Of a DNA stretch of 64,000 nt, positions 39,272 to 64,000 are shown piece after piece. The stretch's first letter is position 1. Every line of letters starts with the position of its first letter. The notes under the pieces are model-generated. The model saw only the letters and a program-made list of their open reading frames with translations, was not told the origin of the DNA and searched no databases. Source of the stretch: Mangrovimonas sp. ST2L15 (lineage in GTDB: Bacteria; Bacteroidota; Bacteroidia; Flavobacteriales; Flavobacteriaceae). The translations under genes were made by a program, and so were the position numbers. The DNA lies in contig NZ_LBIQ01000030.1 of the NCBI RefSeq assembly GCF_001280515.1, forward strand, positions 62,001 through 126,000, written 5' to 3'.

Positions 39272-39338
39272 CAACTTTTACCAAAATTAGATGCGGTTTT
39301 ATTATATTTATGATAACTTTAATTCAAGTATTTACACC

Positions 39339-39872
39339 ATGATGCCAACCTACAAACCATTTTCGCAAAAAACCATTTCTATATTTTGCTTTATCCTGTT
39401 AATCAGCACTTCCATTCAAGCACAAGAAAAAAAATCTGACTTTTGGAATCATGTGCGATTTGGGGGTGGTATCGGACTGAGTTTTGGAAACGAATTTTTT
39501 AGTGGCACCTTGGCTCCGAGCGCCCTTTATGACATCAATCCTTATGTTTCTGTTGGACTCGGACTGAACGGAACCTACAGCAGCAGAAAATACTATCACA
39601 AATCAACCATTTTTGGAGGCAGTGTCATAGGCATTTTCAATCCCATTCCACAACTTCAGATATCCACAGAATTTGAGCAATTAAACGTAAACAGGGATTG
39701 GGACAGTCGCTGGGGAATTGCCGATGAAAATTACTGGTATCCGGCCCTATTCCTTGGAGCCGGATTTAGAGCTCAAAACGTCACTGTGGGAATGCGCTTT
39801 GATGTGCTTTATGATAGCGACAAAAGCATTTATGCCCAATCTTGGATGCCGTTTGTAAGGGTTTATTTTTAG
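39339..39872 (+). CDS. Small outer-membrane beta-barrel-like protein
   Basis: The start is placed at ATG 39339 (MMPTYKPFSQKTISIFCFILLISTSIQAQ), giving a normal signal peptide cleaved after QAQ; the upstream in-frame ATG would put 16 polar residues before it. The mature part of about 150 residues has alternating strands such as FGGGIGLSFGNEFFSG, YVSVGLGLNGTY, LFLGAGFRAQ and TVGMRFDVLYD, and ends with a terminal Phe (MPFVRVYF), as in small outer-membrane barrels. Relatives next to sucA are sometimes labelled alpha-ketoglutarate decarboxylase; nothing in this sequence supports an enzyme. It is divergent from sucA and convergent with the 116-residue gene, overlapping it by four bases. Confidence 0.72.
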   Translation: MMPTYKPFSQKTISIFCFILLISTSIQAQEKKSDFWNHVRFGGGIGLSFGNEFFSGTLAPSALYDINPYVSVGLGLNGTYSSRKYYHKSTIFGGSVIGIFNPIPQLQISTEFEQLNVNRDWDSRWGIADENYWYPALFLGAGFRAQNVTVGMRFDVLYDSDKSIYAQSWMPFVRVYF

Positions 39873-48025: not shown

Positions 48026-48853
48026 TTAGTTTAAATGAAGTTCTACCACTATAGGAAAATGATCAGAAGGATAGTGTAAATCCCAATTATCACTCAAAAC
48101 GGCATACTTGTTTACCTGGATGTTTTCACTTACGAATATAAAATCAATTCTTCTTGTGACCGGTTCATTGAAATGAAACCCATTGAAGGTCCCAGTGGGC
48201 CCAAAAGCCATATTGGAAATGGTTTTGGAATCCTTTAAAGTCCGAAGAATATATTGTATACTTTCATGTTCTGGCTCCATATTAAAATCACCCGTTAAGA
48301 TTACTGGTAAACGTTCCTTGTTTAGCTCTTGGATTTTTTCAATAATTAATAGGGCACTATTTTTTCTAGCTTCCTTTCCAACGTGATCAAAATGGGTATT
48401 GAAGACCCAAAATTTCTCATCGGTATCTTGATTTTGCAGCAAAGCATAAGTACAAACACGGTTACAAACAGCATCCCAACCCATACCAACTTTTTCGGGA
48501 GTTTCAGACAACCAGAAGGTAGAAGATTCCAGTACTTTAAATTTCTTCTTTTTATAAAAAATAGCCGAGTATTCCCCTTCATCCTTACCATCGTCCCTAC
48601 CAACTCCCAATGAGGCATATTCTGGTAATAAAAGAGACATATCTTTCATCTGATTAGGCATCGCTTCTTGAACTCCCATCACGTCTGGCTCATGAAATTT
48701 TATTTGATTTATAAAAAATGGCTTTCGGTTGGTCCAGCTATTTTCACCTTCCTTAGGGTAATCCAGCTTAATATTATAAGTCATTACTTTTAATTCTTGC
48801 GATTGCGCAAGAACAACCAATAACATAAAAATTCCAGTAACTATTTTTTTCAT
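48026..48853 (-). CDS. Secreted endonuclease/exonuclease/phosphatase (EEP) family hydrolase
   Basis: This 275-residue protein has a signal peptide (MKKIVTGIFMLLVVLAQSQ). The EEP catalytic blocks are present: LKVMTYNIKLD (Asn), GVQEA (metal-binding Glu), ILTGDFNMEP (Asp/Asn) and the closing YPSDHFPIVVEL (Asp-His). Relatives cleave phosphodiesters in DNA, inositol phosphates or sphingomyelin. It is the last gene of the operon, two bases after the GH43-like gene. The role in a glycan locus is unclear; similar secreted EEP proteins are common next to glycan operons in Bacteroidota. Confidence 0.9.
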   Translation of the reverse strand: MKKIVTGIFMLLVVLAQSQELKVMTYNIKLDYPKEGENSWTNRKPFFINQIKFHEPDVMGVQEAMPNQMKDMSLLLPEYASLGVGRDDGKDEGEYSAIFYKKKKFKVLESSTFWLSETPEKVGMGWDAVCNRVCTYALLQNQDTDEKFWVFNTHFDHVGKEARKNSALLIIEKIQELNKERLPVILTGDFNMEPEHESIQYILRTLKDSKTISNMAFGPTGTFNGFHFNEPVTRRIDFIFVSENIQVNKYAVLSDNWDLHYPSDHFPIVVELHLN

Positions 48854-48855
48854 GA

Positions 48856-50700
48856 TTACTCAACTAGTATAATTTCACTCTTGTCTGAAATACCGTTTTC
48901 ATTAAAAGCTTCAATGGTAAAATAGTAAGGTGTATCTCTATCTAAACAACGCATAAAATGTTCATTGGTATCATAAACCAGCCATGACTGGTACAATTTA
49001 TCTGGAGCAATTCCCCAACGAATATTATATCCTTGTGCTCCATTTACCGCATTCCATTTAAAAGTTGCATCCCTTCTATCTTTTTCACGCTCAATATTAA
49101 ATCCTTCAACCTTTTTGGGTTTTTCACCAAGACCCAAACCAAAAACTCGAAATTCTGACATGGCAAAATTGGCTCCCGGTACTTTAATATTTTTATAACG
49201 AACAAACTTGGCCTGTACGGGGTCATCCAGTACGATGTATGCATTTGGAGCATCAATGTCACTTTGACTTCTATCAACCACCGTTTGCCATTGCTCACCA
49301 TCCTCTGACACCTCTATTACAAATTGATGTTTCAACCCTTCCGTACGGGTATAGATACCTGTCTCGTAATCGTGAAAATTAAGTTGGAAAGCGTGAACTT
49401 TTCCAGGGTTTACCATTTCAATTTTAATCCATTGTTTATCGTCATTAGCTTCAGACACCCAAAACGTCTTTGGATTTTCATCCGTAAAGACTTTAGAAAT
49501 TATTTCTCCCTTAGCATTAGTTTCTACAGGTAATTCTGTAACCTTTACTTCATCATCATTCGAAGTAAATTTCATGATTTGTTTTAAGGAGGAGGAAACC
49601 GTAGCATCCCCTTTATAAGAAAGTAACATCCATCCGTTATGCTCTCCTGCTTTTGTAGGATGACTGGGGGCATATCTAGGATAATCGCCATAGGACGTAT
49701 TAGAGTACATCAAACCATCGGTATCAAAAAAGGTAGGAAACATACATAAACGGCGCTCCCATTGTGAATTTGAAGCCAAGGCCATCGTTGCAAAATGCCA
49801 ATATTGTCCATTGGTTTGTTTTACGGTAATACCGTGTCCCGCCCCATTAGTAAAACCTCCCGGTTTGAAACTCATAGGGTTGTTTTTCATGTATGTAAAT
49901 GGCCCTAGTGGTGTTTCACCCACATAAACTCCATCAGCATACACATTAAACTGGGTTCCAGGAGCTGCAAATTGTAAATAGTATTTTCCGTTGTGTTTGG
50001 TCATGGAAGCTCCTTCCATATAACCTTCTTTTAAAGTAGGATGAAAATTATTTTCTCCAAATCGCTCCCAGCCATGTTCATCTTCAACTAAGTTGATTAA
50101 TTCTTTCCTGACTCCTGTTTCTAAAAAACGATCATCTCGATTCAGCATTTTCACCTGAATGGGGTGCACATTTGATGAACCCCAATACAAATATGCTTTT
50201 CCATCATCATCTATGAATAATTCGGAATCTTGAATGTTATTTGAAATGGAAGAGGTTGGTGTCCACAAACCTTTTTTAGGATCATCGGTGTACAAGATAC
50301 TTCCGTAACCTGCCGGATCACCAGCAAAATACACTAAGGAATCTTTATAGTTAAAAGCTGTTGGCGCGTTGCTGCCTTCAAAAAACCATTGTTGCGGTTT
50401 TATGAATTTCCAGTTGACTAAATCTGTGGAATGCCAATACCCAAACGAACGTGTTACGAACATATAATATTCGCCTTTAAACTCGATAACTGCTGGATCT
50501 GCACCAGAGCGATACGATATGTTTCTACTTGAATTATAGACCATATAGGTGTAGTCTATATCTAGCGGATTGATGTAAGTTTCTGAAGTATTTTTAAGCT
50601 GTTCTTTGTTGGTTTCAGCTGATTTAGATTCATTATTTTCCTCTTTTTCTTTACAAGAAAAAAGCGTTAAAACCAATAATATCAATAGTTGTAATCTCAT
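48856..50700 (-). CDS. GH43-like glycosidase lipoprotein with discoidin and FN3-like domains
   Basis: This 614-residue lipoprotein has lipobox LTLFSC (Cys16). The N-terminal 330 residues resemble a five-bladed beta-propeller of the GH43/GH117 kind: YRSGADPAVIEFKGEYYMF would hold the base Asp, QDSELFIDDDGKAYLYWG the second Asp, and YMEGASMTKHNGKYYL the acid Glu. After about residue 380 come a discoidin-like module (WIKIEMVNPGKVHAFQLNFHDYE...) and a C-terminal FN3-like domain (GYNIRWGIAPDKLY, YYFTIEAFNENGISD). The family is assigned with caution. It is a paralogue of the partial gene at the right edge. It starts three bases after the sulfatase stop. Confidence 0.8.
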   Translation of the reverse strand: MRLQLLILLVLTLFSCKEKEENNESKSAETNKEQLKNTSETYINPLDIDYTYMVYNSSRNISYRSGADPAVIEFKGEYYMFVTRSFGYWHSTDLVNWKFIKPQQWFFEGSNAPTAFNYKDSLVYFAGDPAGYGSILYTDDPKKGLWTPTSSISNNIQDSELFIDDDGKAYLYWGSSNVHPIQVKMLNRDDRFLETGVRKELINLVEDEHGWERFGENNFHPTLKEGYMEGASMTKHNGKYYLQFAAPGTQFNVYADGVYVGETPLGPFTYMKNNPMSFKPGGFTNGAGHGITVKQTNGQYWHFATMALASNSQWERRLCMFPTFFDTDGLMYSNTSYGDYPRYAPSHPTKAGEHNGWMLLSYKGDATVSSSLKQIMKFTSNDDEVKVTELPVETNAKGEIISKVFTDENPKTFWVSEANDDKQWIKIEMVNPGKVHAFQLNFHDYETGIYTRTEGLKHQFVIEVSEDGEQWQTVVDRSQSDIDAPNAYIVLDDPVQAKFVRYKNIKVPGANFAMSEFRVFGLGLGEKPKKVEGFNIEREKDRRDATFKWNAVNGAQGYNIRWGIAPDKLYQSWLVYDTNEHFMRCLDRDTPYYFTIEAFNENGISDKSEIILVE

Positions 50701-50703
50701 TTT

Positions 50704-52497
50704 TTAGTTTATTTTTTCAATTGAAAATCCATCAATTCCAACCAAATATCCATTAGAATATCCAGAAGATTTATAGTCTTTTCCAACAATTTCAATTTCA
50801 AAATTATTAATCCCTTTATTGAGTTGGACTTCACCATAGGAAATAGCTCCAGTTGGCTGAACACCTTCAGCAAAACCATCAACCAATTCGCCTACTTTTT
50901 TGCCATTTACAGACAACTGAATAATGGAATAATCTTTGGCTTTTGTGAAAAAACCATCAAGCTTATACAAACCGGATTCTTCAATGGTAATAGGCATTTT
51001 AAGTGTTGCTCCAGATTGCGCCTCAACCCACCATAACTGTTGGTCATTTCCCCAAAGATGTCTTTCGACAGGCATATTTTGAATTTTCAACGAACCGTGA
51101 GAAACGGTTACATTGTCAATAAAATCCTCAGCTTCAATATTGGGTTTGGGCTCAAAAGATTTTACGGTTTTTTCGTGAGCTTTCTTTAAGCCAATTATTT
51201 TTTCAATGATATCAGGATGGGCTTCGGAAACATTATATTTTTCAGATGGATCGTTTTCCAAATTGAATAATAATGGTGGATTATGAACGTTTTTTGGTCC
51301 GCTAGGATAAGCCGTTTGGGTTATAAAATGTGCTTTCCATTGCCCTGACCTAACTGCAAAAACTTCTTTTCCACGATAAAACATAAACGCATCATTTGTA
51401 ACTGCTTTTTCACCTTTTAGTGATGATAAAATATTTTGTCCGTCTAATTGCGTTTCGGGTAATTTGGTGTCACTTAAGGCGGCAATGGTTGGTAATAAAT
51501 CCAAAGTATTTGTCACGTCTTCGTTTACAATGCCTTTTGGTATTTGGGTTGGCCACCACGCAACCATTGGTACTCGGTAACCGCCTTCCCAAGTGGTTCC
51601 TTTTCCGTCTTTTAGTAAGCCTGCTGAACCGCCCTTTTCTTTGTGCATTAACCACGGACCGTTATCACTTGTGAAAATAACCAAAGTATTTTCAAGCTTT
51701 AATTCTTTTAGTTTTTTAAGGATTTGCCCAACGCTCCAATCCAATTCTTCAACCACATCGCCATACAATCCTCGCTTGCTTTTGCCTTCAAAATCGTTGG
51801 AGGCAAATAGCGGAATATGAGGCATACTATGCGCTAAATACAAAAAGAATGGTTTGTCTTTGTTATCAGAAATGAAATCCAAAGCTTTTTCAGTATATCG
51901 TTTTGTAAGTGTGGTTTGTTCTGCTGGTCGTTCAATAATATCTTCATTGTGCATTAATGGCACATTAAAAATGTTCTTTTCGGCGATGTAATCCATATCG
52001 TTAGAATACGGAATACCATAATATTCGTCAAATCCCTGAGTAGTTGGCAGGTATTGTGGCAAATGTCCTAAATGCCATTTACCAACTGCCATAGTCGCAT
52101 AATCTTTTTGTTTTAAAACTTCGGCAATAGTTACTTCTTCGGCTTTTAAACCGTTTTCAGAATCTGGAAATAACACGCCACCTTTCATAATACCTTCAAC
52201 CAAACCAGTTCTAACAGGATATCTTCCGGTTAGTAACCCAGCGCGACTTGGTGTGCAAACCGGTGCAGCCACGTAAAATTGAGTGAAGCGCATACCTTCA
52301 TGAGCCATTTGGTCTAAATGCGGTGTTCTTATGGTTGGATGACCATAACTGGACAGATCGCCATAACCCATATCATCCACAAAAATCACGATGACATTTG
52401 GTGGATTTTTAGGTTTTGATTTCTCTTCAAATTTTATCTGTTTACTTCCTAAAAAAAAACTAATACAGTATAAAATTGAAAGCCCTAATTTGATCAT
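50704..52497 (-). CDS. Type I sulfatase (formylglycine-dependent), arylsulfatase A-like
   Basis: This 597-residue protein has a signal peptide. VIVIFVDDMGYGDLSSYGHP holds the metal-binding aspartates, and the signature CTPSRAGLLTGR has Cys81 for conversion to formylglycine. Further landmarks are VGKWHLGH, FTSDNGPW and RVPMVAWWP. After about residue 470 comes a beta-rich C-terminal module (LWWVEAQSGATLKMPITIEESG...), probably carbohydrate-binding. It hydrolyses sulfate esters of the polysaccharide. The required maturase (FGE or anSME) is not in the window. Its start overlaps the stop of the upstream sulfatase gene by four bases. Confidence 0.95.
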   Translation of the reverse strand: MIKLGLSILYCISFFLGSKQIKFEEKSKPKNPPNVIVIFVDDMGYGDLSSYGHPTIRTPHLDQMAHEGMRFTQFYVAAPVCTPSRAGLLTGRYPVRTGLVEGIMKGGVLFPDSENGLKAEEVTIAEVLKQKDYATMAVGKWHLGHLPQYLPTTQGFDEYYGIPYSNDMDYIAEKNIFNVPLMHNEDIIERPAEQTTLTKRYTEKALDFISDNKDKPFFLYLAHSMPHIPLFASNDFEGKSKRGLYGDVVEELDWSVGQILKKLKELKLENTLVIFTSDNGPWLMHKEKGGSAGLLKDGKGTTWEGGYRVPMVAWWPTQIPKGIVNEDVTNTLDLLPTIAALSDTKLPETQLDGQNILSSLKGEKAVTNDAFMFYRGKEVFAVRSGQWKAHFITQTAYPSGPKNVHNPPLLFNLENDPSEKYNVSEAHPDIIEKIIGLKKAHEKTVKSFEPKPNIEAEDFIDNVTVSHGSLKIQNMPVERHLWGNDQQLWWVEAQSGATLKMPITIEESGLYKLDGFFTKAKDYSIIQLSVNGKKVGELVDGFAEGVQPTGAISYGEVQLNKGINNFEIEIVGKDYKSSGYSNGYLVGIDGFSIEKIN

Positions 52498-54185
52498 GGC
52501 GTATAATCTTTATCTTTAATAGGGTCATAAGCTGTGCCTGTATGACCTCTTAATTTTTCAAATTGTTTGTAAGCCCTCTCTACTTTTTCCTTTGGAGCTT
52601 GTTCCAACTCTTTTTCTGTGACTTGATATTGCTCTTCAAGTTCTGCCAGCCTTTTTCTTAATTCAGCTTCAATGGCATCATACTCTGGATTATCAATCTG
52701 ATTATGAATTTCCTTTGGGTCTTCTTCTAAATCATATAACTCCCAGGTATCAATATCATCATAAAAATGCATGAGCTTATAGCGATTGGTCCTTACTCCA
52801 TAATGCTTTTTCACCATGTGAAATGCTGGATAATCATAGTAATGGTAATACACGGCATCCCTAAAATCTTCATCTTCCATGGTGTTTTCCATTAAGGGCC
52901 TCAAGGATTTACCTTGCATATCATTTGGAATTTGAGCCCCTGCATAATCCAAAAATGTTTCGGCAAAATCTATATTTTGAGTCAGAGCGGTCACTTCAGA
53001 ACCTGCTTTGATATGGCCAGGGTACTTCATCATCAAAGGCATTGCCAAAGATTCTTCATACATGTAGCGCTTATCAAACCACCCCTTCTCTCCTAAATAA
53101 AATCCTTGATCTGTGGTATAAACCACTATGGTATTTTCCTCTAACCCATTTTCTTTAAGATAATCCAAAATTTCCCCAACACCTTCATCAACTGAAGCAA
53201 TCGTAGCCAAGTACTCTTGTAAAAATCGCTGTCCTTTATATTCTGCCAATTCCCTACCAGACAAATTAGCATCATGAAACGCATCATTTTTGGCAGCATA
53301 TGCTGAATCCCAAATTTTTCGTTGCTCAACAGTCATTCTATCAAAATCATTAGTCCAGGGATTCCAAGCCAATTCAGGGTTTCCCTTTTCTTTAGTTAAT
53401 TTTAAATCATGGCCCTCATAGGTGTCCTTATAAATGGTTTGAAGTTGTTCCTGAGAACCCAAGGATCCCTCATGATTCGTAAAATAAGTATCTGGAAGAG
53501 GGAACTTAATGGAATCGTATTTGTTCAAATGACGAATAGCTGGCATCCAATTTCTATGAGGCGCTTTGTGTTGAACCATTAGCATAAACGGTTGTCCCCC
53601 ATCCTTAGCAGCCTTCATAAAATCTAGGGCTTGATTGGTAATAATGTCTGTTGCATAGCCAGGAATATCCAAAGTATCAGCCGTTTTACCTTGTTCTCCT
53701 TGTTTGATAAAGGTGGGATTGTAATAGTGTCCTTGATCTTCAAGAATGTTCCAGTAGTCAAATCCTTGCGGTAATCCATTTAAGTGCCATTTTCCTACTA
53801 ACCCCGTTTTATAACCCTCTTTTTGAAGCATTTTTGGAAAGGTCGGTTGGCTTCCATCAAAACTTTCTCCATTCATCCTAAACCCATTAATGTGGCTAAA
53901 CTTACCTGTTAAAACTACCGCTCTACTTGGTCCACACAACGAATTGGTACAAAAATTATTTTTAAACAACACGCCTTCATCTGCAATTCGGTCAATATTT
54001 GGGGTGGGAGCCAACTGTCCAATAGGATGACCATATGCACTGATGGCTTGTTCGGCATGGTCATCTGCCATAATGTAAACGATATTAGGTCTTTTGGCGT
54101 CTTCCTGCTCGGGCTTTTCTTCTTCTTTTTGTTTACAACTTTGACTTATAAGTATTAAACAAATTAGGTATAAAATATGTTTCAT
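52494..54185 (-). CDS. Type I sulfatase lipoprotein
   Basis: This 563-residue lipoprotein has lipobox ISQSC (Cys17). NIVYIMADDHAEQAISAYGHP has the metal-binding Asp pair, and CGPSRAVVLTGK carries Cys84, the formylglycine precursor. GLVGKWHLNG and VVYTTDQGFYLGEKGWFDKRYMYEE match the group of S1 sulfatases that includes bacterial heparan and iduronate-type enzymes. The C-terminus is charged and helical. Together with the next sulfatase it suggests at least two distinct sulfate positions in the substrate. Its ATG shares one base with the stop of the esterase gene. Confidence 0.95.
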   Translation of the reverse strand: MKHILYLICLILISQSCKQKEEEKPEQEDAKRPNIVYIMADDHAEQAISAYGHPIGQLAPTPNIDRIADEGVLFKNNFCTNSLCGPSRAVVLTGKFSHINGFRMNGESFDGSQPTFPKMLQKEGYKTGLVGKWHLNGLPQGFDYWNILEDQGHYYNPTFIKQGEQGKTADTLDIPGYATDIITNQALDFMKAAKDGGQPFMLMVQHKAPHRNWMPAIRHLNKYDSIKFPLPDTYFTNHEGSLGSQEQLQTIYKDTYEGHDLKLTKEKGNPELAWNPWTNDFDRMTVEQRKIWDSAYAAKNDAFHDANLSGRELAEYKGQRFLQEYLATIASVDEGVGEILDYLKENGLEENTIVVYTTDQGFYLGEKGWFDKRYMYEESLAMPLMMKYPGHIKAGSEVTALTQNIDFAETFLDYAGAQIPNDMQGKSLRPLMENTMEDEDFRDAVYYHYYDYPAFHMVKKHYGVRTNRYKLMHFYDDIDTWELYDLEEDPKEIHNQIDNPEYDAIEAELRKRLAELEEQYQVTEKELEQAPKEKVERAYKQFEKLRGHTGTAYDPIKDKDYTP

Positions 54186-55069
54186 TAGGATTTAGTTTTA
54201 ATAATGGTCGTTTGAATAACCTCATCATTAATAATCGTTCTTTCAAAAAATTTGAAGACCATATCCAACTCCTCATAAGGAATTCGTGAAATTTCATGCT
54301 TTCCTCCTTTAACAATGTTAAAATAATATGAGGTTTCAAAGTCTTCTAACTTATCTACAATCACCTTTGCTCCATCTAGAAATAAATAACCAGGCTTCTC
54401 TGGGTCACAAAAGTGATGTGGCGCCGATGCAAATGGCACTAAGTTATCTTCTGTGCCATGGTAAAAGACACTAGGTATAGCATTCTCTTTTGTTATGTAT
54501 TCAGCATTTACAATAGCCCCAGCACATGAAAACATGCCAGCAAATTCAACTTGCTTATATTTCTCTAAATCATCTGCAAAATGCTCTTTCATAAACACCG
54601 CGTTCAAGGTGCCCTCTGCTCCAGCACTACTACCTCCGGCAATAAGGAGCTTGGTGTCGACATGCAATCGATTAGAATTGGAAACCACAAAGGCTGCTGC
54701 ATCTAAATAATCAATAGCTGCTTGTTTAAAAACCTCCAGTTTATCCTCTTTTGTACAATCGCAACCGAATCCTGTTTTGGTACCTTTTCTAAGTAATCTA
54801 TAAGAAATAGAAATACCGATATATCCATGCTGTGCCGCATATTGGCAAAGTTCTGCATCATCTTTAAAATCTCTAGAACCCACAGAAAATCCACCCCCAT
54901 GCATCCATAACAATGTAGGTAGTTTATCCCCTGCCTTAATATTCTCTGGAGTATAAACATCCAGTTTTAAAGTATCCTTTCCTTTAATAGAATAGGTATA
55001 AGTTGTTTTGGTTTGTGCGGTCGCATATACACCAAGAAATAAGAAAAGTGCAATAGTTAAAACTCTCAT
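54185..55069 (-). CDS. Secreted alpha/beta-hydrolase carboxylesterase
   Basis: This 294-residue protein has signal peptide MRVLTIALFLFLGVYATAQ. The alpha/beta-hydrolase fold shows the oxyanion motif LLWMHGGGFSVGSRD and the nucleophile elbow GGSSAGAEGTLNA; a later Asp (YHGTEDNLVPFA) and His (GGKHEISRI) complete a Ser-Asp-His triad. It belongs to the carboxylesterase/BD-FAE-like group that often removes acetyl or feruloyl groups from polysaccharides. It follows the GH2 gene with no gap and is joined to the sulfatase gene by a one-base overlap. Confidence 0.9.
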   Translation of the reverse strand: MRVLTIALFLFLGVYATAQTKTTYTYSIKGKDTLKLDVYTPENIKAGDKLPTLLWMHGGGFSVGSRDFKDDAELCQYAAQHGYIGISISYRLLRKGTKTGFGCDCTKEDKLEVFKQAAIDYLDAAAFVVSNSNRLHVDTKLLIAGGSSAGAEGTLNAVFMKEHFADDLEKYKQVEFAGMFSCAGAIVNAEYITKENAIPSVFYHGTEDNLVPFASAPHHFCDPEKPGYLFLDGAKVIVDKLEDFETSYYFNIVKGGKHEISRIPYEELDMVFKFFERTIINDEVIQTTIIKTKS

Positions 55070-57697
<2,628 letters not shown>

Positions 57698-57702
57698 TTA
57701 AG

Positions 57703-58620
57703 TTATTTCAATATCAATTTAGTGGTTTGTTCGCTATCGTTTACTTGCATTCTAAGGAAATAAACTCCTGAACTGATTTGCTGATTATCATGTCTATCCC
57801 AGGTAAATTGGAAATTCCCTGCAGGTTGCTGTGCATCTAGAAGTTTAGAAACCAAACTACCGTTTATATTATAAATTTCCATTTTAACTTGAGAAGATTC
57901 TTTCAAATCCATTCTTACCTCCAAAATATCAGCAACTGGATTTGGATAGAAACTCAACATGTTTTTTAATTTAAAATCGCTTACAGAAAGTGGTGCATCA
58001 GATTTAATAATCTCAATAGCTCCTAAATAATAAAACCCGAAACTATTGTCATTGTTTGGTCCAGGCTCTGCCGTAAAAGTTATTTCTCCACTTCCGTTTG
58101 GCTGAATGTTCATAGCATCTGCTGTATTTGCCGTATTGTTGGAAGTGTTCAACGCAACCACTTCTGTTGTAGAACCTGCAACTGTATATTGGGTTTCCCT
58201 GTTATCGCTCACCCCATTTCTTGAAGCAAAAATCGAAAATGAGTAATAAAAAGAGGGATCTAATCCAGTTAGGGTAAAACCTCCTGTAGCCTCTAAACTT
58301 CCATTAAAGGTAGACGTTTCACCAAAAAAACTATCTGCTGCTGCTGATGAAGGAAACGGCAATGAAGCATCTGGGGTAGGATTTCCTGCTGTATTAACCG
58401 TATCAAAAGCATCATCAATGGTTAAAGTAACTCCAGTACTAGCCCCATTTGAGTCTATTAAAACACCTGAAAGCCCATCAGCATCTACTGCATTTGCTAC
58501 TGAAAAGTTGTTCCAATTACCCTCAGTTTCATTCGTTGTAATACCAAAATCAATGTATGTATATTCCTGAGCGAAGGAAATACAAGAAAATAAAGCGAAA
58601 ATAAATGTAATTTTTTTCAT
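57703..58620 (-). CDS. T9SS-secreted protein with stand-alone YIDFG/NWNN domain
   Basis: This 305-residue protein has a signal peptide (MKKITFIFALFSCISFAQ). Residues about 19-205 form a beta-rich domain that begins YTYIDFGITTNETEGNWNNF and ends SFGFYYLGAIEII. The C-terminal 85 residues are a type IX secretion sorting domain (LSFYPNPVADILEVRMD ... GVYFLRMQVND ... TTKLILK). No catalytic motif is visible. The first domain is closely similar to the N-terminus of the SGNH hydrolase encoded just upstream, so a glycan-binding role is inferred. It lies seven bases from that gene. Confidence 0.85.
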   Translation of the reverse strand: MKKITFIFALFSCISFAQEYTYIDFGITTNETEGNWNNFSVANAVDADGLSGVLIDSNGASTGVTLTIDDAFDTVNTAGNPTPDASLPFPSSAAADSFFGETSTFNGSLEATGGFTLTGLDPSFYYSFSIFASRNGVSDNRETQYTVAGSTTEVVALNTSNNTANTADAMNIQPNGSGEITFTAEPGPNNDNSFGFYYLGAIEIIKSDAPLSVSDFKLKNMLSFYPNPVADILEVRMDLKESSQVKMEIYNINGSLVSKLLDAQQPAGNFQFTWDRHDNQQISSGVYFLRMQVNDSEQTTKLILK

Positions 58621-58626
58621 AATTCA

Positions 58627-60456
58627 TTAATTTAAAATTAGACGTTTGGTTAAAGACTTATCATTATTGGTTATAGTCATGAGATACACCCCATTTTCAA
58701 GATTCCCTCTAGACCAAGAAATTTTATGATTTGAAATTTGATGGTTACCGTCATAAACTCTTGAGCCTAGAAGGTCATAAACTTGAATATTGGCTTGATT
58801 TCCCACAAATTCGCTATTGCTTACAGTACAGGTTTCACTCACCGGATTAGGGAATAATTTAAATTCTGTGCTAAATAAAAATTCTTCAACACTCAAAGCA
58901 TTTTGGACTGCAATATGCACTCCCTTACCTAACACTCTTTCAAAAAGAATAAAATGGGCATCATCATTCATATGAATTCCATCCCCAGAATCGTATTCAG
59001 ATAAAATGCCATTCCCATCAGCTTCTCCTAAATCAGTCCAAAAGTCAATCGTATTTTCCCCAAACATGGTATATGTCTCATCTATCATATCCAATTGAAT
59101 ATTTAAATTGGTGGTATTAGATCCAAAATCTCTTGGTTGTGGTGTCGTTACCCAAAGTGGAATATTAGCATTTGCTGCCACGTCACTTATCAGACCATAG
59201 TTATACAATTGGTCAGCTACCGGGTAGCCACTAGCGGCGTCATTTGATGGAAGATTGATAATAATTCCACCTGCTTCCAGTTCGACAGCCTTTGATATGT
59301 TTCGTTCCACATCGATGGTTCTATTAACTCCCGCAGGAATTGGTGTCCCAGTTGGCAAAATATTGTATGTAGCAAATCCACCTAATGCCAAATTAACCAC
59401 CTCAAATCTGGTATCCATTTCCGTGAGATAGGTGTTATATCTCCACACCCATGCATTGTTAAGATCGGAAGGACCTGTTCCGGCCGCTGTTGAGGAACCA
59501 AGCACTATAATTCTATAAACTTCTCCCTCATTAGGGATTACTTCAAAAACATTTTCACTTGTATCAGTTAAACCCTCTCCCGAAATTCGAACCAAACATT
59601 CATTTGAAATTTCATCAGGAACTACCATATCATAATGTTGCGCTGAACCTACTGCAGTTGCTATAGTAGACCATGTGGCACCATTATCTGAAGAAAATTC
59701 TATCAGCATATCAGGAACTGATATACTAGTCCATTTAACTCTCACAGTCTTTCCAACTTCCCATAAATGACCTCCATTAGGATAATTAAGAGCCAGTTCT
59801 GGGTCAGGAGTGGTATCTGATATTGGTGTTTCACTAACAATCAACTGTACCGCCCCTAAATAATAAAACCCGAAACTATTATTGTTATTTGGGCCCGGCT
59901 CTGCGGTCAATACAATCTCCCCACTTCCGTTAGGTTGAATATTCAAAATATTGGCCGTATTCGTCGTGTTATTGGCTGGGTTTAATGCTTGAGAATCTGT
60001 AGTTGCTCCTTCTACAGTATACAAGGTTTCACGATTATCACTCACTCCTGATCTTGAGCTAAAAACGGAAAAAGAATAATATAGGGCAGGATCCAAATTA
60101 GACAATGTAAAACCGCCTGACGGATTCACATTACCATTAAATCCCGATTCTGTTTCCCCAAAGAAACTATCCATTGATGCCGAAGAAGGAAAAGGCAAAG
60201 CCCCATTAGGGCTTGATGTCCCGTTGGAATTAATATGGTCAAAAGAATCGGTGAGCGTAAACAGGATTCCCATATCAGCACCTGAATCATCTATCAAGTT
60301 TGCTGTAAGGCCTTCTTCGTTCTGTGAAGAAACCACTATGTTATTCCAATTGCCAGAAGTTGTGTTGGATGAACCTCCAAAATCTATGTAAGCATATTGT
60401 TGAGCAAAACCAACATAGCCTATCATAATTAATAAAAAAAGTAATAGTCTCTTCAT
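58627..60456 (-). CDS. T9SS-secreted SGNH/GDSL hydrolase with YIDFG/NWNN domain
   Basis: This 609-residue protein has signal peptide, then the same beta domain as its neighbour (about 19-210, YAYIDFGGSSNTTSGNWNN ... SFGFYYLGAVQLI). An Ig-like/Kre9-like segment follows (YPNGGHLWEVGKTVRVKWTS, about 225-310). The SGNH esterase domain runs from about 315 to 500: block I YRIIVLGSSTAAGTG, block II NLALGGFATYN, block III IINLPSNDAAS, block V DGIHMNDDAH. A T9SS sorting domain closes the protein (KLFPNPVSETCTVSN ... NGVYLMTITNNDK). It probably deacylates a polysaccharide at or outside the cell surface. Confidence 0.9.
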   Translation of the reverse strand: MKRLLLFLLIMIGYVGFAQQYAYIDFGGSSNTTSGNWNNIVVSSQNEEGLTANLIDDSGADMGILFTLTDSFDHINSNGTSSPNGALPFPSSASMDSFFGETESGFNGNVNPSGGFTLSNLDPALYYSFSVFSSRSGVSDNRETLYTVEGATTDSQALNPANNTTNTANILNIQPNGSGEIVLTAEPGPNNNNSFGFYYLGAVQLIVSETPISDTTPDPELALNYPNGGHLWEVGKTVRVKWTSISVPDMLIEFSSDNGATWSTIATAVGSAQHYDMVVPDEISNECLVRISGEGLTDTSENVFEVIPNEGEVYRIIVLGSSTAAGTGPSDLNNAWVWRYNTYLTEMDTRFEVVNLALGGFATYNILPTGTPIPAGVNRTIDVERNISKAVELEAGGIIINLPSNDAASGYPVADQLYNYGLISDVAANANIPLWVTTPQPRDFGSNTTNLNIQLDMIDETYTMFGENTIDFWTDLGEADGNGILSEYDSGDGIHMNDDAHFILFERVLGKGVHIAVQNALSVEEFLFSTEFKLFPNPVSETCTVSNSEFVGNQANIQVYDLLGSRVYDGNHQISNHKISWSRGNLENGVYLMTITNNDKSLTKRLILN

Positions 60457-60481
60457 AATTATAAAATTTAATTTGTGTGCT

Positions 60482-62704
60482 TTATTCTAAATAAAAACTC
60501 GTATTGAACTTAAATTCTGAGTTTGGGGCAATAGCAATTTCAAATTCTCCCGGTTCCACACCAAAAATCATGTCGCTGTTATAAAATTTCAAATCCTCAA
60601 TAGAAATTGAAAAGGAAACCTTTTTACTTTCACCCTTTTTCAAGAATATTTTTTCAAAACCTTTTAATTCTTTCACAGGTCGGGTAACACTTCCTACTTT
60701 GTCATGAATGTATAACTGCACGATTTCATGCCCATCCATATTTCCTGAATTAGTAATGGTTATTGAAGCCTTCAAAGTTCCATTAGCATTTAAGGTCTTG
60801 GAAGACAATGTGAGATTCGAATACGTAAATTGAGTGTAACTCAAACCATATCCAAATGAGAATAAAGGTGAATTTGGCACATCTATATAATTACTTTTAT
60901 AATCTTCCTTAGGATTAGTCTCAGGAATTGGCCTTCCTGTATTTTTCATGTTGTAATAAATAGGCACTTGCCCCACATTCCTGGGGAATGTCACTGATAG
61001 TTTACCAGAGGGGTTCACTTTACCAAATAATAAATCTGCAGTTGCTGCACCACCCATGGTACCTGGAAACCAAACTTCTAATATGGCATCAACCAATCCT
61101 ACTTCTTCAGAAAGATTTAATGGACGTCCATTCATGATCACCAAGGTGATTTTTTTATCAGGATTAGCTTCTCTAATTTTCTTAATAAGCTTAGGTTGTA
61201 ATCCAGGAATTTTCAAGTTGGTTCTTGAAGCCGCTTCCCCACTCATATGATGCCCTTCACCCATTACCAAAACAATTTCTTCTGCTTGTTTTGAAACTGA
61301 AATAGCTTCAGCAAAACCTGATTCATCATCCTTTAAAATATCACAACCCTTGGCATACAAAATTTGATTGGACTTGAGGTATTCTGAAACGCCCTCAAAG
61401 ACGCTGACTGCCTTCCCCTGCCTATCACCTTTGGCTGCCCAATTTCCTAGAATATCATATTCATCTTTGACTAAGGGTCCTATAAAAGCTATTTTATTTG
61501 TGCTTTTTGAAAGCGGTAAGGCTTCACTATTGTTTTGTAGTAATACCGAAGATGCCGCTGCGATCTCTCTGGCTTTAGCTAAAAACTCCGGTTTATATTT
61601 AGTAGTGTTTTCTCGTTCTTCATTAATGTATCTGTAGGGATCTTCAAATAATCCCAATTTGTATTTAGCTAATAGAATTCTTCTACAAGCATCATCTACA
61701 TAACGCTTAGGAATTTGACCTTCCTCTACAAGATCTTTTAAAAAATGATGGTACAATTTACCCACCATATCCATATCTACTCCTGCATTCATACCAATTC
61801 TAGCGGCGTCAATACTATCCTTGGCAAATCCGTGAGGAACTAGCTCATTAATAGATGTATAATCTGAAACCACAAATCCATTAAAATTCCATTCATCACG
61901 CAGGATATCTCGTAAGGTGAATTTATTCCCAGAAGTCGGCACCCCATTTAACTCATTAAATGCAGACATGAACGTTTCCACTCCAGCATCTACCGTAGCC
62001 TTGAAAGGGGGTAAATACACATTTCGTAATTCCCTTTCACCCATATTCACTGTGTGATAATCGCGGCCTGCTTGAGCTGCTCCATACGCTACATAATGTT
62101 TAGCACAAGCCAAAATCGTATTAGGCTGCGATAAGTCGTCACCCTGAAATCCTTTAACATAGGCTTTTGCTATTTGACTACCTAGGTACACATCTTCACC
62201 TGCACCTTCTGAAATGCGCCCCCAGCGTGGTTCTCTAGAAATATCCACCATGGGTGCAAAGGTCCAATGCAAGCCCTCTGCAGAGGCTTCTTCGGCTGCA
62301 ATACGCGAACTTTCTTTAACCATATTCAAATCCCAACTACATGACATTCCTAAATTGATTGGAAAAATGGTTCGGTGACCATGAATCACATCATAACCAA
62401 ACAACAACGGAATACCAAGTCTAGATTCTTCAATAGCGATTTTCTGTAAGTCTCTTGTACCTTTGACCGTAAATGCATTCAGCATTGCACCCAAATTGCC
62501 TTCACGGATGTATCTACCATTGTCTGTTCCTACGATAGGCCCCGTTTGATCCCAACTTCCACTATACATTACCGTCTGACCAATCTTTTCTTGAAGGGTC
62601 ATAAGCTTCATTAAGGAATCGACTTTTGCCTCATAGTTTTGGGACCAAGAGATAATTCCTGTCAGAAAAGAAATTAAAAAGGTCGTATGCTTAAGCTGAT
62701 TCAT
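60482..62704 (-). CDS. GH3 beta-glycosidase (BglX-like)
   Basis: This 740-residue GH3 enzyme has a signal peptide (MNQLKHTTFLISFLTGIISWSQ). The TIM barrel contains IPLLFGYDVIHGHRTIFPI and the nucleophile Asp281 in GFVVSDYTSINEL; the second domain contains the acid/base region VLVMGEGHHMSGEAASR; a fibronectin-III-like domain forms the C-terminus (SKKVSFSISIEDLKFYN). It is close to BglX in length and sequence and may cleave beta-glucosides, beta-xylosides or related sugars at non-reducing ends. It starts six bases after the stop of the GH43-like gene at the window edge. Confidence 0.95.
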   Translation of the reverse strand: MNQLKHTTFLISFLTGIISWSQNYEAKVDSLMKLMTLQEKIGQTVMYSGSWDQTGPIVGTDNGRYIREGNLGAMLNAFTVKGTRDLQKIAIEESRLGIPLLFGYDVIHGHRTIFPINLGMSCSWDLNMVKESSRIAAEEASAEGLHWTFAPMVDISREPRWGRISEGAGEDVYLGSQIAKAYVKGFQGDDLSQPNTILACAKHYVAYGAAQAGRDYHTVNMGERELRNVYLPPFKATVDAGVETFMSAFNELNGVPTSGNKFTLRDILRDEWNFNGFVVSDYTSINELVPHGFAKDSIDAARIGMNAGVDMDMVGKLYHHFLKDLVEEGQIPKRYVDDACRRILLAKYKLGLFEDPYRYINEERENTTKYKPEFLAKAREIAAASSVLLQNNSEALPLSKSTNKIAFIGPLVKDEYDILGNWAAKGDRQGKAVSVFEGVSEYLKSNQILYAKGCDILKDDESGFAEAISVSKQAEEIVLVMGEGHHMSGEAASRTNLKIPGLQPKLIKKIREANPDKKITLVIMNGRPLNLSEEVGLVDAILEVWFPGTMGGAATADLLFGKVNPSGKLSVTFPRNVGQVPIYYNMKNTGRPIPETNPKEDYKSNYIDVPNSPLFSFGYGLSYTQFTYSNLTLSSKTLNANGTLKASITITNSGNMDGHEIVQLYIHDKVGSVTRPVKELKGFEKIFLKKGESKKVSFSISIEDLKFYNSDMIFGVEPGEFEIAIAPNSEFKFNTSFYLE

Positions 62705-62710
62705 ATCAAT

Positions 62711-64000
62711 CTATTTTGCTTTAATTATTTTGGTTCGTTCTGAAATGCCGCTTTCATTAAAAGCTTCGATAGTGAAAAAATACTCGGTATCTTTATCCAT
62801 ACCTCGGAAATCGTAAAAATCCTCTTCATAAACCATGATGCTGTTATATAACTTATCAGGAGCAATTCCATAATAGATGTTATACCCTATTGCTTGTCCT
62901 TGCTTTTTCCAAGTAATCATAGCATTTCGCGAATCTTGCTGGCTTCTATCAACCTTAAAACCAGAAACTGATTTTGGCTTCTCTGATAACCCTTTTCCAA
63001 AAACTCTAAAATCGGACACTGCAAATAATCCAGAAGCATTATGAATATTTACCATCTTGATATAACGTGCTTGTTTGGATTTTGTTAGCTGCACATAATC
63101 ATGTGGCACATCTTTATCATTCCTAGATTTATCAACTACCAAAGTCCAATTTTCAGCATCATTTGACATGAATATTTGATATTGGTAATAGATATCCATC
63201 GCTTTATTAAATTGCGTTGCCTTATGGTCTGCATAGTTAATTTGAAGCGCCTTTATTTCCATGATTTTGCCCAAATCAACCTGAAGCCACTCACCATTAT
63301 CTGCTGTTTTTGCTGACCAGTAGGTTTGTATGTTTTCATCTGTTAGATTTGAAGCTCCATAACAGATTCTTTCATAAACCTTTTCTCCTCCATGATCCAT
63401 TCTGTTTGTCTCCACATCCTGACATGCTTCAAATGAAGAAACGGTCACAGGTTTTTTATAGGATAGTAACATCCAGCCTGAAGAAGCACCCTCTGAATGA
63501 TCTCTTCTTTCAGTTGGAAGCAGAATTGGAAAATCACCATAAGACGTAACAGAATACATCACATCATCTTTATCAAAACCAGCAGGAAACATATCAATTC
63601 TTCTTTCAAAACGATCTTTAACTGATATTTTACATGTTCCTGTATTCCAATAGTTTCCGTAGTTATCTGCAAAAGTATTTCCGTGACCTGCTCCAACTAC
63701 AAAGCCCCCTGGCTTATAGGACATGGGATTGTGTTTTTGATACTCAAACGGTCCTAATGGATGATCTCCAACATGAACACCGTTGGCATACCCCTTAAAT
63801 TCAGTTCCTGGAGCACCATATTGCATATAATATTTACCGTTGTGCTTAGTCATCCAAGCACCTTCAATAAAATTACCCCAAGGTGCAGGTTCCATATCAT
63901 TATTGGGTCCAAAACGTTCCCAGCCATGTTCTGAAGGCTCTAAACCGACAACTTCCTTTATTTCCCCGTATGGTTTCTGAATATCATCAACTTCGGTCGC
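62711..64000 (-). CDS. GH43-like glycosidase with discoidin and FN3-like domains, 5' end missing
   Basis: The reading frame is open to the right edge, so the N-terminus is outside; 429 residues are visible, and comparison with its paralogue at 48856-50700 suggests about 170 are missing. The visible part begins in the propeller (HGWERFG ... FIEGAWMTKHNGKYYMQYGAPGTEF, with the probable acid Glu), continues with a discoidin-like module (WLQVDLGKIMEIKALQINYADHK) and ends in an FN3-like domain (GYNIYYGIAPDKLYNS). The two proteins sit at the two ends of the visible operon. Whether their specificities differ cannot be told. Confidence 0.82.
   Translation of the reverse strand, partial: ATEVDDIQKPYGEIKEVVGLEPSEHGWERFGPNNDMEPAPWGNFIEGAWMTKHNGKYYMQYGAPGTEFKGYANGVHVGDHPLGPFEYQKHNPMSYKPGGFVVGAGHGNTFADNYGNYWNTGTCKISVKDRFERRIDMFPAGFDKDDVMYSVTSYGDFPILLPTERRDHSEGASSGWMLLSYKKPVTVSSFEACQDVETNRMDHGGEKVYERICYGASNLTDENIQTYWSAKTADNGEWLQVDLGKIMEIKALQINYADHKATQFNKAMDIYYQYQIFMSNDAENWTLVVDKSRNDKDVPHDYVQLTKSKQARYIKMVNIHNASGLFAVSDFRVFGKGLSEKPKSVSGFKVDRSQQDSRNAMITWKKQGQAIGYNIYYGIAPDKLYNSIMVYEEDFYDFRGMDKDTEYFFTIEAFNESGISERTKIIKAK

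Follow-up and report, generated by a model that had tools for sequence, protein, structure and literature searches.

A domain of about 193 residues occurs in two copies in the 64,000-nucleotide stretch of Mangrovimonas sp. ST2L15 DNA analysed here (the window), on two adjacent proteins that both carry a T9SS sorting tail. In one protein the domain precedes an SGNH esterase; in the other it stands alone. The reading that we favour, with somewhat better than even confidence, is that the domain is an unnamed module that resembles a carbohydrate-binding module (CBM) and targets ester hydrolases, while the neighbouring gene encodes the binder alone for the cell surface. In the 609-residue protein it would keep the SGNH esterase in contact with a decorated polysaccharide during the removal of acyl groups, the T9SS tail exporting the protein to the cell surface, while in the 305-residue protein the domain alone would bind the same or a similar glycan on the surface, beside a SusC/SusD uptake system. 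Glycan binding, acyl-ester removal and one ligand common to both copies are what we infer on this reading.

Two adjacent genes for exported domain proteins

The two open reading frames, listed at 57703-58620 and 58627-60456, lie on the minus strand with six bases between them. The 305-residue protein consists only of a signal peptide recognised by eye (residues 1-18; 58567..58620), the domain (residues 20-212; 57985..58563, delimited by BLASTP, alignment and structure model) and a T9SS type A sorting tail (57706..57948; 49.1 bits to Por_Secre_tail, 44.1 bits to TIGR04183). The 609-residue protein also has a signal peptide and the domain (residues 20-212; 59821..60399, from BLASTP and alignment), followed by an Ig-like linker of about 90 residues (approximately 59533..59817, placed by eye and lacking a Pfam match), an SGNH hydrolase domain (58897..59523, ends approximate, from the Pfam score and motifs) and a T9SS type A tail (58630..58857; 48.6 and 42.7 bits to the same two models). 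Both tails pass the TIGR04183 cut-off of 23 bits. A single BLASTP comparison of signal peptide plus domain aligns 124 identical residues among 214 (58%) with an E value of 3e-84, so the likeness of the two proteins is not due to chance.

These results confirm the first-pass annotation of this DNA, which had described the same domain on two adjacent T9SS cargo proteins. The strings that it named as shared are all present in both proteins, the one given as ‘SVSDNRET-like’ reading GVSDNRET in each. Its account of an SGNH esterase joined to one copy and a sorting domain alone to the other also holds, with the addition of the Ig-like linker that it had omitted.

The 609-residue protein contains the SGNH block I, II, III and V motifs, GSSTAAGTG (320), NLALGGFATY (355), IIINLPSNDA (398) and DGIHMND (492). 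The same motifs, with the Ser, Gly, Asn and Asp-x-x-His of these blocks, recur in four relatives (L004, L120, L109 and L117); in L119 fixed SGNH patterns missed three of the four, and variants were found by eye. Against Lipase_GDSL_2 the window enzyme scores 32.8 bits, 0.1 under the Pfam cut-off of 32.9, and two relatives scanned exceed that cut-off with 50.7 and 55.3 bits. The structure model of the 511-residue esterase stretch had a mean pLDDT of 43, and the stretch was left out of all fold searches. According to a 22-row profile at E 1, the whole genome holds only these two domain copies. A third weak match, returned by a two-row profile, is a signal peptide and was rejected.

Family membership and predicted fold

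No family of Pfam or NCBIfam takes in the domain when 96 members are scanned, and the earlier statement that it is not a recognised named family is upheld for these two libraries. Together the 96 members touch 24 Pfam families at E 0.1, none of them PF21254 (AGA-YXIM_GBD, cut-off 27 bits), which also has no match in the window’s genome at E 1e-5. Malectin (PF11721) and F5/8 type C are likewise not matched by any of the 96 at E 0.1, while one member touches PF12819 (Malectin_like) at E 0.04. CBM models of Pfam and NCBIfam are absent from the members’ matches. In NCBIfam, one of the 96 reaches E 0.00036 with a phage head spike model, which leaves the family uncovered. Among solved structures, no PDB sequence matches a 96-row profile along the length of the domain. 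Profile-profile comparison by hhalign with YxiM-type, malectin and F5/8 type C modules gave probabilities below 1%, from comparators of only 4, 4 and 6 rows; the controls (sulfatase, GH2 N-terminal and SusD sets and a reversed alignment) all fell below 1% like the test sets, and with sets this small (2-6 rows) distant kinship could escape. At the sequence level the domain is most likely an unnamed family, relative to Pfam and NCBIfam, of a known kind of module, and appears to lie in none of the families tested.

An AlphaFold2 model of the domain, built from a five-row alignment, is all beta, with a mean pLDDT of 67, a pTM of 0.74 and 50 of its 193 residues below a pLDDT of 50. The first row returned by VIA is the N-terminal module of YxiM from B. 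subtilis (residues 14-158; Z 8.6, rmsd 3.2, 133 residues aligned), at a Z score that only just exceeds the best value usually obtained for models with no clear match. Next come a pectate-lyase CBM and malectin-like plant receptors, with CBM61, CBM22, CBM35, CBM32 and Ape1 lower in the list. Foldseek on a predicted structure, one of the checks that the first-pass annotation had asked for, placed an alginate-binding CBM first (E 0.009) and returned nothing at E <0.001; among its hits, CBMs stand together with Cry toxins and other beta-sandwiches. The model thus supports a galactose-binding-like (jelly-roll) beta-sandwich as the predicted fold, which is not proof of family membership. The most conserved residues (W36-N37, S133-R134, R141 and N162, numbered as in the lone protein) map to predicted loops or to their edges and may form a common site. 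The suggestion of a carbohydrate-binding or surface-adhesion domain is supported in part, by a predicted fold class rich in sugar-binding modules and by a polysaccharide-utilisation locus with sulfatases.

It is unlikely, in our estimate, that the domain is a general structural or adhesive beta-sandwich, an FN3/Ig-like spacer with no ligand of its own. Such a spacer would agree with the match of the 96-row profile to fibronectin (E 2.5e-5), but this match covers positions 78-113, or 36 of 185, and the domain is about twice the length of FN3. The titin value of 3.4e-10 is summed over the whole chain, without any single passing stretch. Nine of the 96 members touch Pfam fn3, at E 0.0035 for the best, which is also the best Pfam value of all; copies of the domain also occur in proteins of at least 1,700 residues with FN3-like stretches discerned by eye. 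Against this, the conserved polar residues W36, N37, S133, R134, R141 and N162 exceed what a spacer needs, and the domain makes up whole exported proteins. Membership of the fibronectin type III family itself was rejected, as no match rises over the cut-off across the domain and the likeness is a short motif only; in the domain copies of L074, fn3 reaches 22.2 bits against a cut-off of 25, over a short stretch.

Several known systems resemble the CBM-like module that we favour. The N-terminal module of YxiM/CE12 (PF21254; PDB 2o14), besides heading the VIA list, resembles the window domain in that it follows a signal peptide, lies N-terminal to an SGNH esterase and starts with a DFG strand; its all-beta jelly-roll fold is the one predicted for the window domain. 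Unlike that module, the window domain has neither a PF21254 match nor profile-profile support, is about 50 residues longer than the PF21254 model, is separated from its esterase by an Ig-like linker, and also occurs alone, C-terminal to DUF4886 and as repeats. CE2, CE17 and Ape1-type enzymes likewise combine an SGNH esterase with a jelly-roll module, the fold predicted for the window domain, and in them the non-catalytic jelly-roll CBM helps the esterase to meet the polymer (PMC9487903). Their modules, however, belong to other families, and the available part of that review describes no lone anchored copy (PMC9487903). Malectin and F5/8 type C domains, both of which occur in neighbouring enzymes of the locus, share the predicted fold class but differ by the Pfam and hhalign results given above. 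CBM113 (UKD) of flavobacterial CelAly is a T9SS-borne binding module that was named recently and occurs mostly in Flavobacteriales; in the part of the source available, its usual partners are glucanases and alginate lyases, and it is described as close to CBM96/CBM80 (PMC13235733). By description only, it is comparable to the window domain as a T9SS-borne module, but its enzyme partners are others.

Spread, enzyme partners and the polysaccharide locus

Among the genomes sampled, the 22-row profile finds the domain in 12 of 395 from Bacteroidota and in 37 of 240 from Verrucomicrobiota, with up to 13 matches in one genome of the latter phylum and a tally there that includes weak matches down to E 3.8e-4. 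Verrucomicrobiota and Bacteroidota are phyla known for polysaccharide breakdown. A domain this widespread in the former and scattered in the latter has no entry in Pfam or NCBIfam. A plasmid search returned one Flammeovirgaceae plasmid only, at 32% identity over 76% of the 305-residue protein.

Parent architectures, read from part of the profile matches and with some parents cut by locus ends, repeatedly join the domain to ester hydrolases. In Bacteroidota there are six GDSL-type SGNH fusions (window, G097, G299, G214, G564 and G544) and eight DUF4886-type SGNH fusions, in which the order is DUF4886 followed by the domain. The partners in Verrucomicrobiota are SGNH, GDSL, sulfatase, metallophosphoesterase and alpha/beta esterase domains; the sulfatase fusions include L096:679-3402 and L205:5819-8722, and calcineurin-like phosphoesterases are fused to it in L088:1384-3534 and L089:1-2829. 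SGNH architectures comprise domain-Ig-SGNH-T9SS, domain-domain-Ig-SGNH and domain-Ig-SGNH-domain, and lone forms end in a T9SS tail (10 genes) or, by pattern and eye, a PEP-CTERM-like tail. The domain shows one of the traits by which CBMs are recognised, a separate non-catalytic module on (putative) carbohydrate-active enzymes, here GDSL- and DUF4886-type SGNH proteins and sulfatases in a polysaccharide-utilisation context, the activities of these enzymes being themselves predictions.

A quickly built tree places the DUF4886-borne domains together with L028 in a group of their own (SH-aLRT 98). A 2022 review describes DUF4886 as an SGNH family of no known function (PMC9487903). The present fusions suggest that DUF4886 proteins carrying the domain are carbohydrate esterases, and the repeated link to ester hydrolases would make DUF4886 testable as a carbohydrate esterase on a definite glycan. 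DUF4886 genes with the domain stand beside sulfatase or SusCD genes at L110:10530-12281, L115:9409-11160 and L118:8687-10684.

The two window genes belong to a run of minus-strand genes assigned by Pfam. On one side are a GH3 enzyme (60482..62704) and a GH43 with an F5/8 type C domain that continues beyond the window edge (62711..64000). On the other are a GH2 enzyme with a C-terminal malectin domain (55070..57631), a BD-FAE type alpha/beta esterase (54185..55069), two PF00884 sulfatases, one with SGSH_C (52494..54185) and one with Sulfatase_C (50704..52497), and a second GH43 with an F5/8 type C domain (48856..50700). The conserved locus ends with its marker gene, for an endonuclease/exonuclease/phosphatase family protein (EEP; 48026..48853, minus strand). 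Past the window edge the locus continues with GH3, an esterase, two PF10091 genes, LamG, SusD, SusC and a LuxR-tailed regulator. The conserved locus type (window 48026-64000 plus L099:2-17067) comprises the regulator, SusC, SusD, LamG, two PF10091, the esterase, GH3 and EEP, with GH97, GH43, GH2 and sulfatases as its variable part. Elsewhere in the window, a 193-residue ORF (39291-39872) lacks a Pfam match at E 0.001.

The sulfatases alone only suggest that the glycan of the locus is an algal sulfated glycan, the kind on which the first-pass annotation had proposed binding assays, and the locus also has two PF10091 enzymes. We take PF10091 to correspond to GH144. In Maribacter dokdonensis, a cluster contains two GH144 genes and one GH3 with susCD and sulfatases, and according to the part of that source available these GH144 genes are present in all Maribacter and Zobellia (PMC8072126).

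The EEP marker, at an identity of at least 63% (a limit chosen after a gap down to 57% was seen), is present in 22 of 397 Flavobacteriaceae, and PF10091 homologues occur in all 17 newly read neighbourhoods of this set. Within the locus itself, the domain is present in five of the 22 marker genomes. Three of them (window, G097 and G299) carry it on a GDSL-type SGNH protein and in a lone copy, in G029 it is at the C-terminus of a DUF4886-type SGNH protein, and in G015 there is a lone copy near a contig end. A sixth marker genome, G125, has the domain elsewhere. Outside the family, G548 combines the locus core (SusC, SusD, LamG, two PF10091 and esterase) with the DUF4886 form. One locus type therefore carries the domain on two SGNH families in opposite domain order (GDSL-type in three genomes, DUF4886 in two).

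The domain is found in 6 of the 22 marker genomes versus 9 of the 375 without the marker (p 5e-5 by Fisher's test, uncorrected for kinship among genomes). Of 19 Flavobacteriaceae genomes matched, 15 remained after four with best E values of 4e-4 to 9e-4 were dropped, G022 and G162 as signal-peptide matches and G326 and G342 as matches that fall partly on unlike proteins, all judged by eye; the signal-peptide match in the window’s own genome was likewise dropped before the counts. The domain is accessory to the locus, being absent from 16 of the 22 marker genomes and missing from the locus stretches read in 17 of the 22.

Pairing of enzyme-borne and lone copies

Enzyme-borne and lone copies lie side by side, or with a single gene between them, in the window, G097 and G299, and likewise in the Verrucomicrobiota genomes G904, G1001 and G951. 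Among Bacteroidota, this pairing accompanies three of the six GDSL-type fusions and, in the stretches read, none of the eight DUF4886 fusions. In Verrucomicrobiota it accompanies three of the six SGNH or GDSL fusions read with flanks (not those of G773, G866 and G821), a count that is no fair rate because the stretches were partly picked for neighbouring matches. In G1010 a lone copy, a 729-residue domain protein and a sulfatase fusion stand in a row. Because a similar pairing occurs in a distant phylum, the domain is probably an unnamed sugar-grip for esterases on decorated polysaccharides, and the enzyme-borne and lone copies offer a ready pair for asking what a free surface binder adds.

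The Verrucomicrobiota pairs differ in how close their copies are. In G1001 a long path separates the lone copy from its neighbour (2.19, against 1.91 to the nearest other row), and in G904 the two distances almost tie (1.34 vs 1.30), the esterase-borne copies of these two genomes being close to each other (1.06). The closest kin of the G951 lone copy are the copies of its neighbour (1.54), as local doubling would give.

The first-pass annotation had proposed that the domain is used once to target an enzyme and once as a free binder. The occurrence of two SGNH families in the same locus type and of the enzyme-borne/lone pair in a second phylum speaks for this division, but a free binder of the same glycan cannot be a general role, since six lone copies of other Flavobacteriaceae (L103-L108) lie in other surroundings. 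No homologue of the window-locus genes is found around them save a sulfatase at the edge of L105, as judged by homology to these genes and by ten Pfam scans that covered L102, L103, L105 and L106. At L106:7780-10750, a lone domain with a T9SS tail has as its neighbours a ZIP transporter and a repressor of the iron-dependent type, as assigned by Pfam on L106, and similar gene sizes are seen in L104 and L107.

Adjoining copies in two phyla could also reflect protein-protein docking, with lone and enzyme-borne copies binding each other or a common partner and the lone protein acting as a scaffold to keep the esterase on the cell surface. In G904, G1001 and G951 a PEP-CTERM-like end is seen by eye on the lone copy but not on the enzyme, and several copies stand in tandem within single chains (L034, L036 and L074), as docking would allow. 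Yet both window proteins own a T9SS tail and so need no anchor, the DUF4886 fusions read lack a lone neighbour, and for many lone copies there is no enzyme-borne one in the vicinity. We consider docking quite unlikely.

It is very hard to credit that the 305-residue protein is a mere leftover of esterase-gene duplication, since, although the genes adjoin and the esterase-borne domain counts the lone one among its closest kin (path 0.66), three genomes keep both copies, each kind groups with its own kind among the window, Subsaxibacter (G097) and G299 rows (support 99 and 96, the G299 esterase-borne row being absent from the tree), the lone copy is under about as much constraint as the catalytic domain (pN 0.18 and 0.16 in the comparison with Subsaxibacter, a statement that rests on pN because dS is near or past saturation), and a similar pairing recurs in Verrucomicrobiota.

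A wider extension of the favoured CBM-like reading is that the domain is a cross-phylum device targeting decorated glycans. Anchored lone copies and enzyme-borne copies would come together in a single assembly at the surface, the lone copy serving as scaffold or lure; the tails would be T9SS in Bacteroidota and PEP-CTERM-like in Verrucomicrobiota, the enzymes would cut acyl, sulfate and perhaps phosphate esters, and phages would borrow the domain to stick there. Taken as a whole, this extension strikes us as decidedly improbable. Searches of viral and phage collections gave no relatives of the domain. In genome G509, the domain is the whole of a 206-residue protein that ends a run with tape measure, collar fibre and endolysin genes (PHROGs on L121), a place that would suit a binding domain. 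The two G509 domain proteins (L121:9483-10103 and L188:9281-9901) belong to two related phage-like tail-lysis runs, L188 having nine proteins in common with L121.
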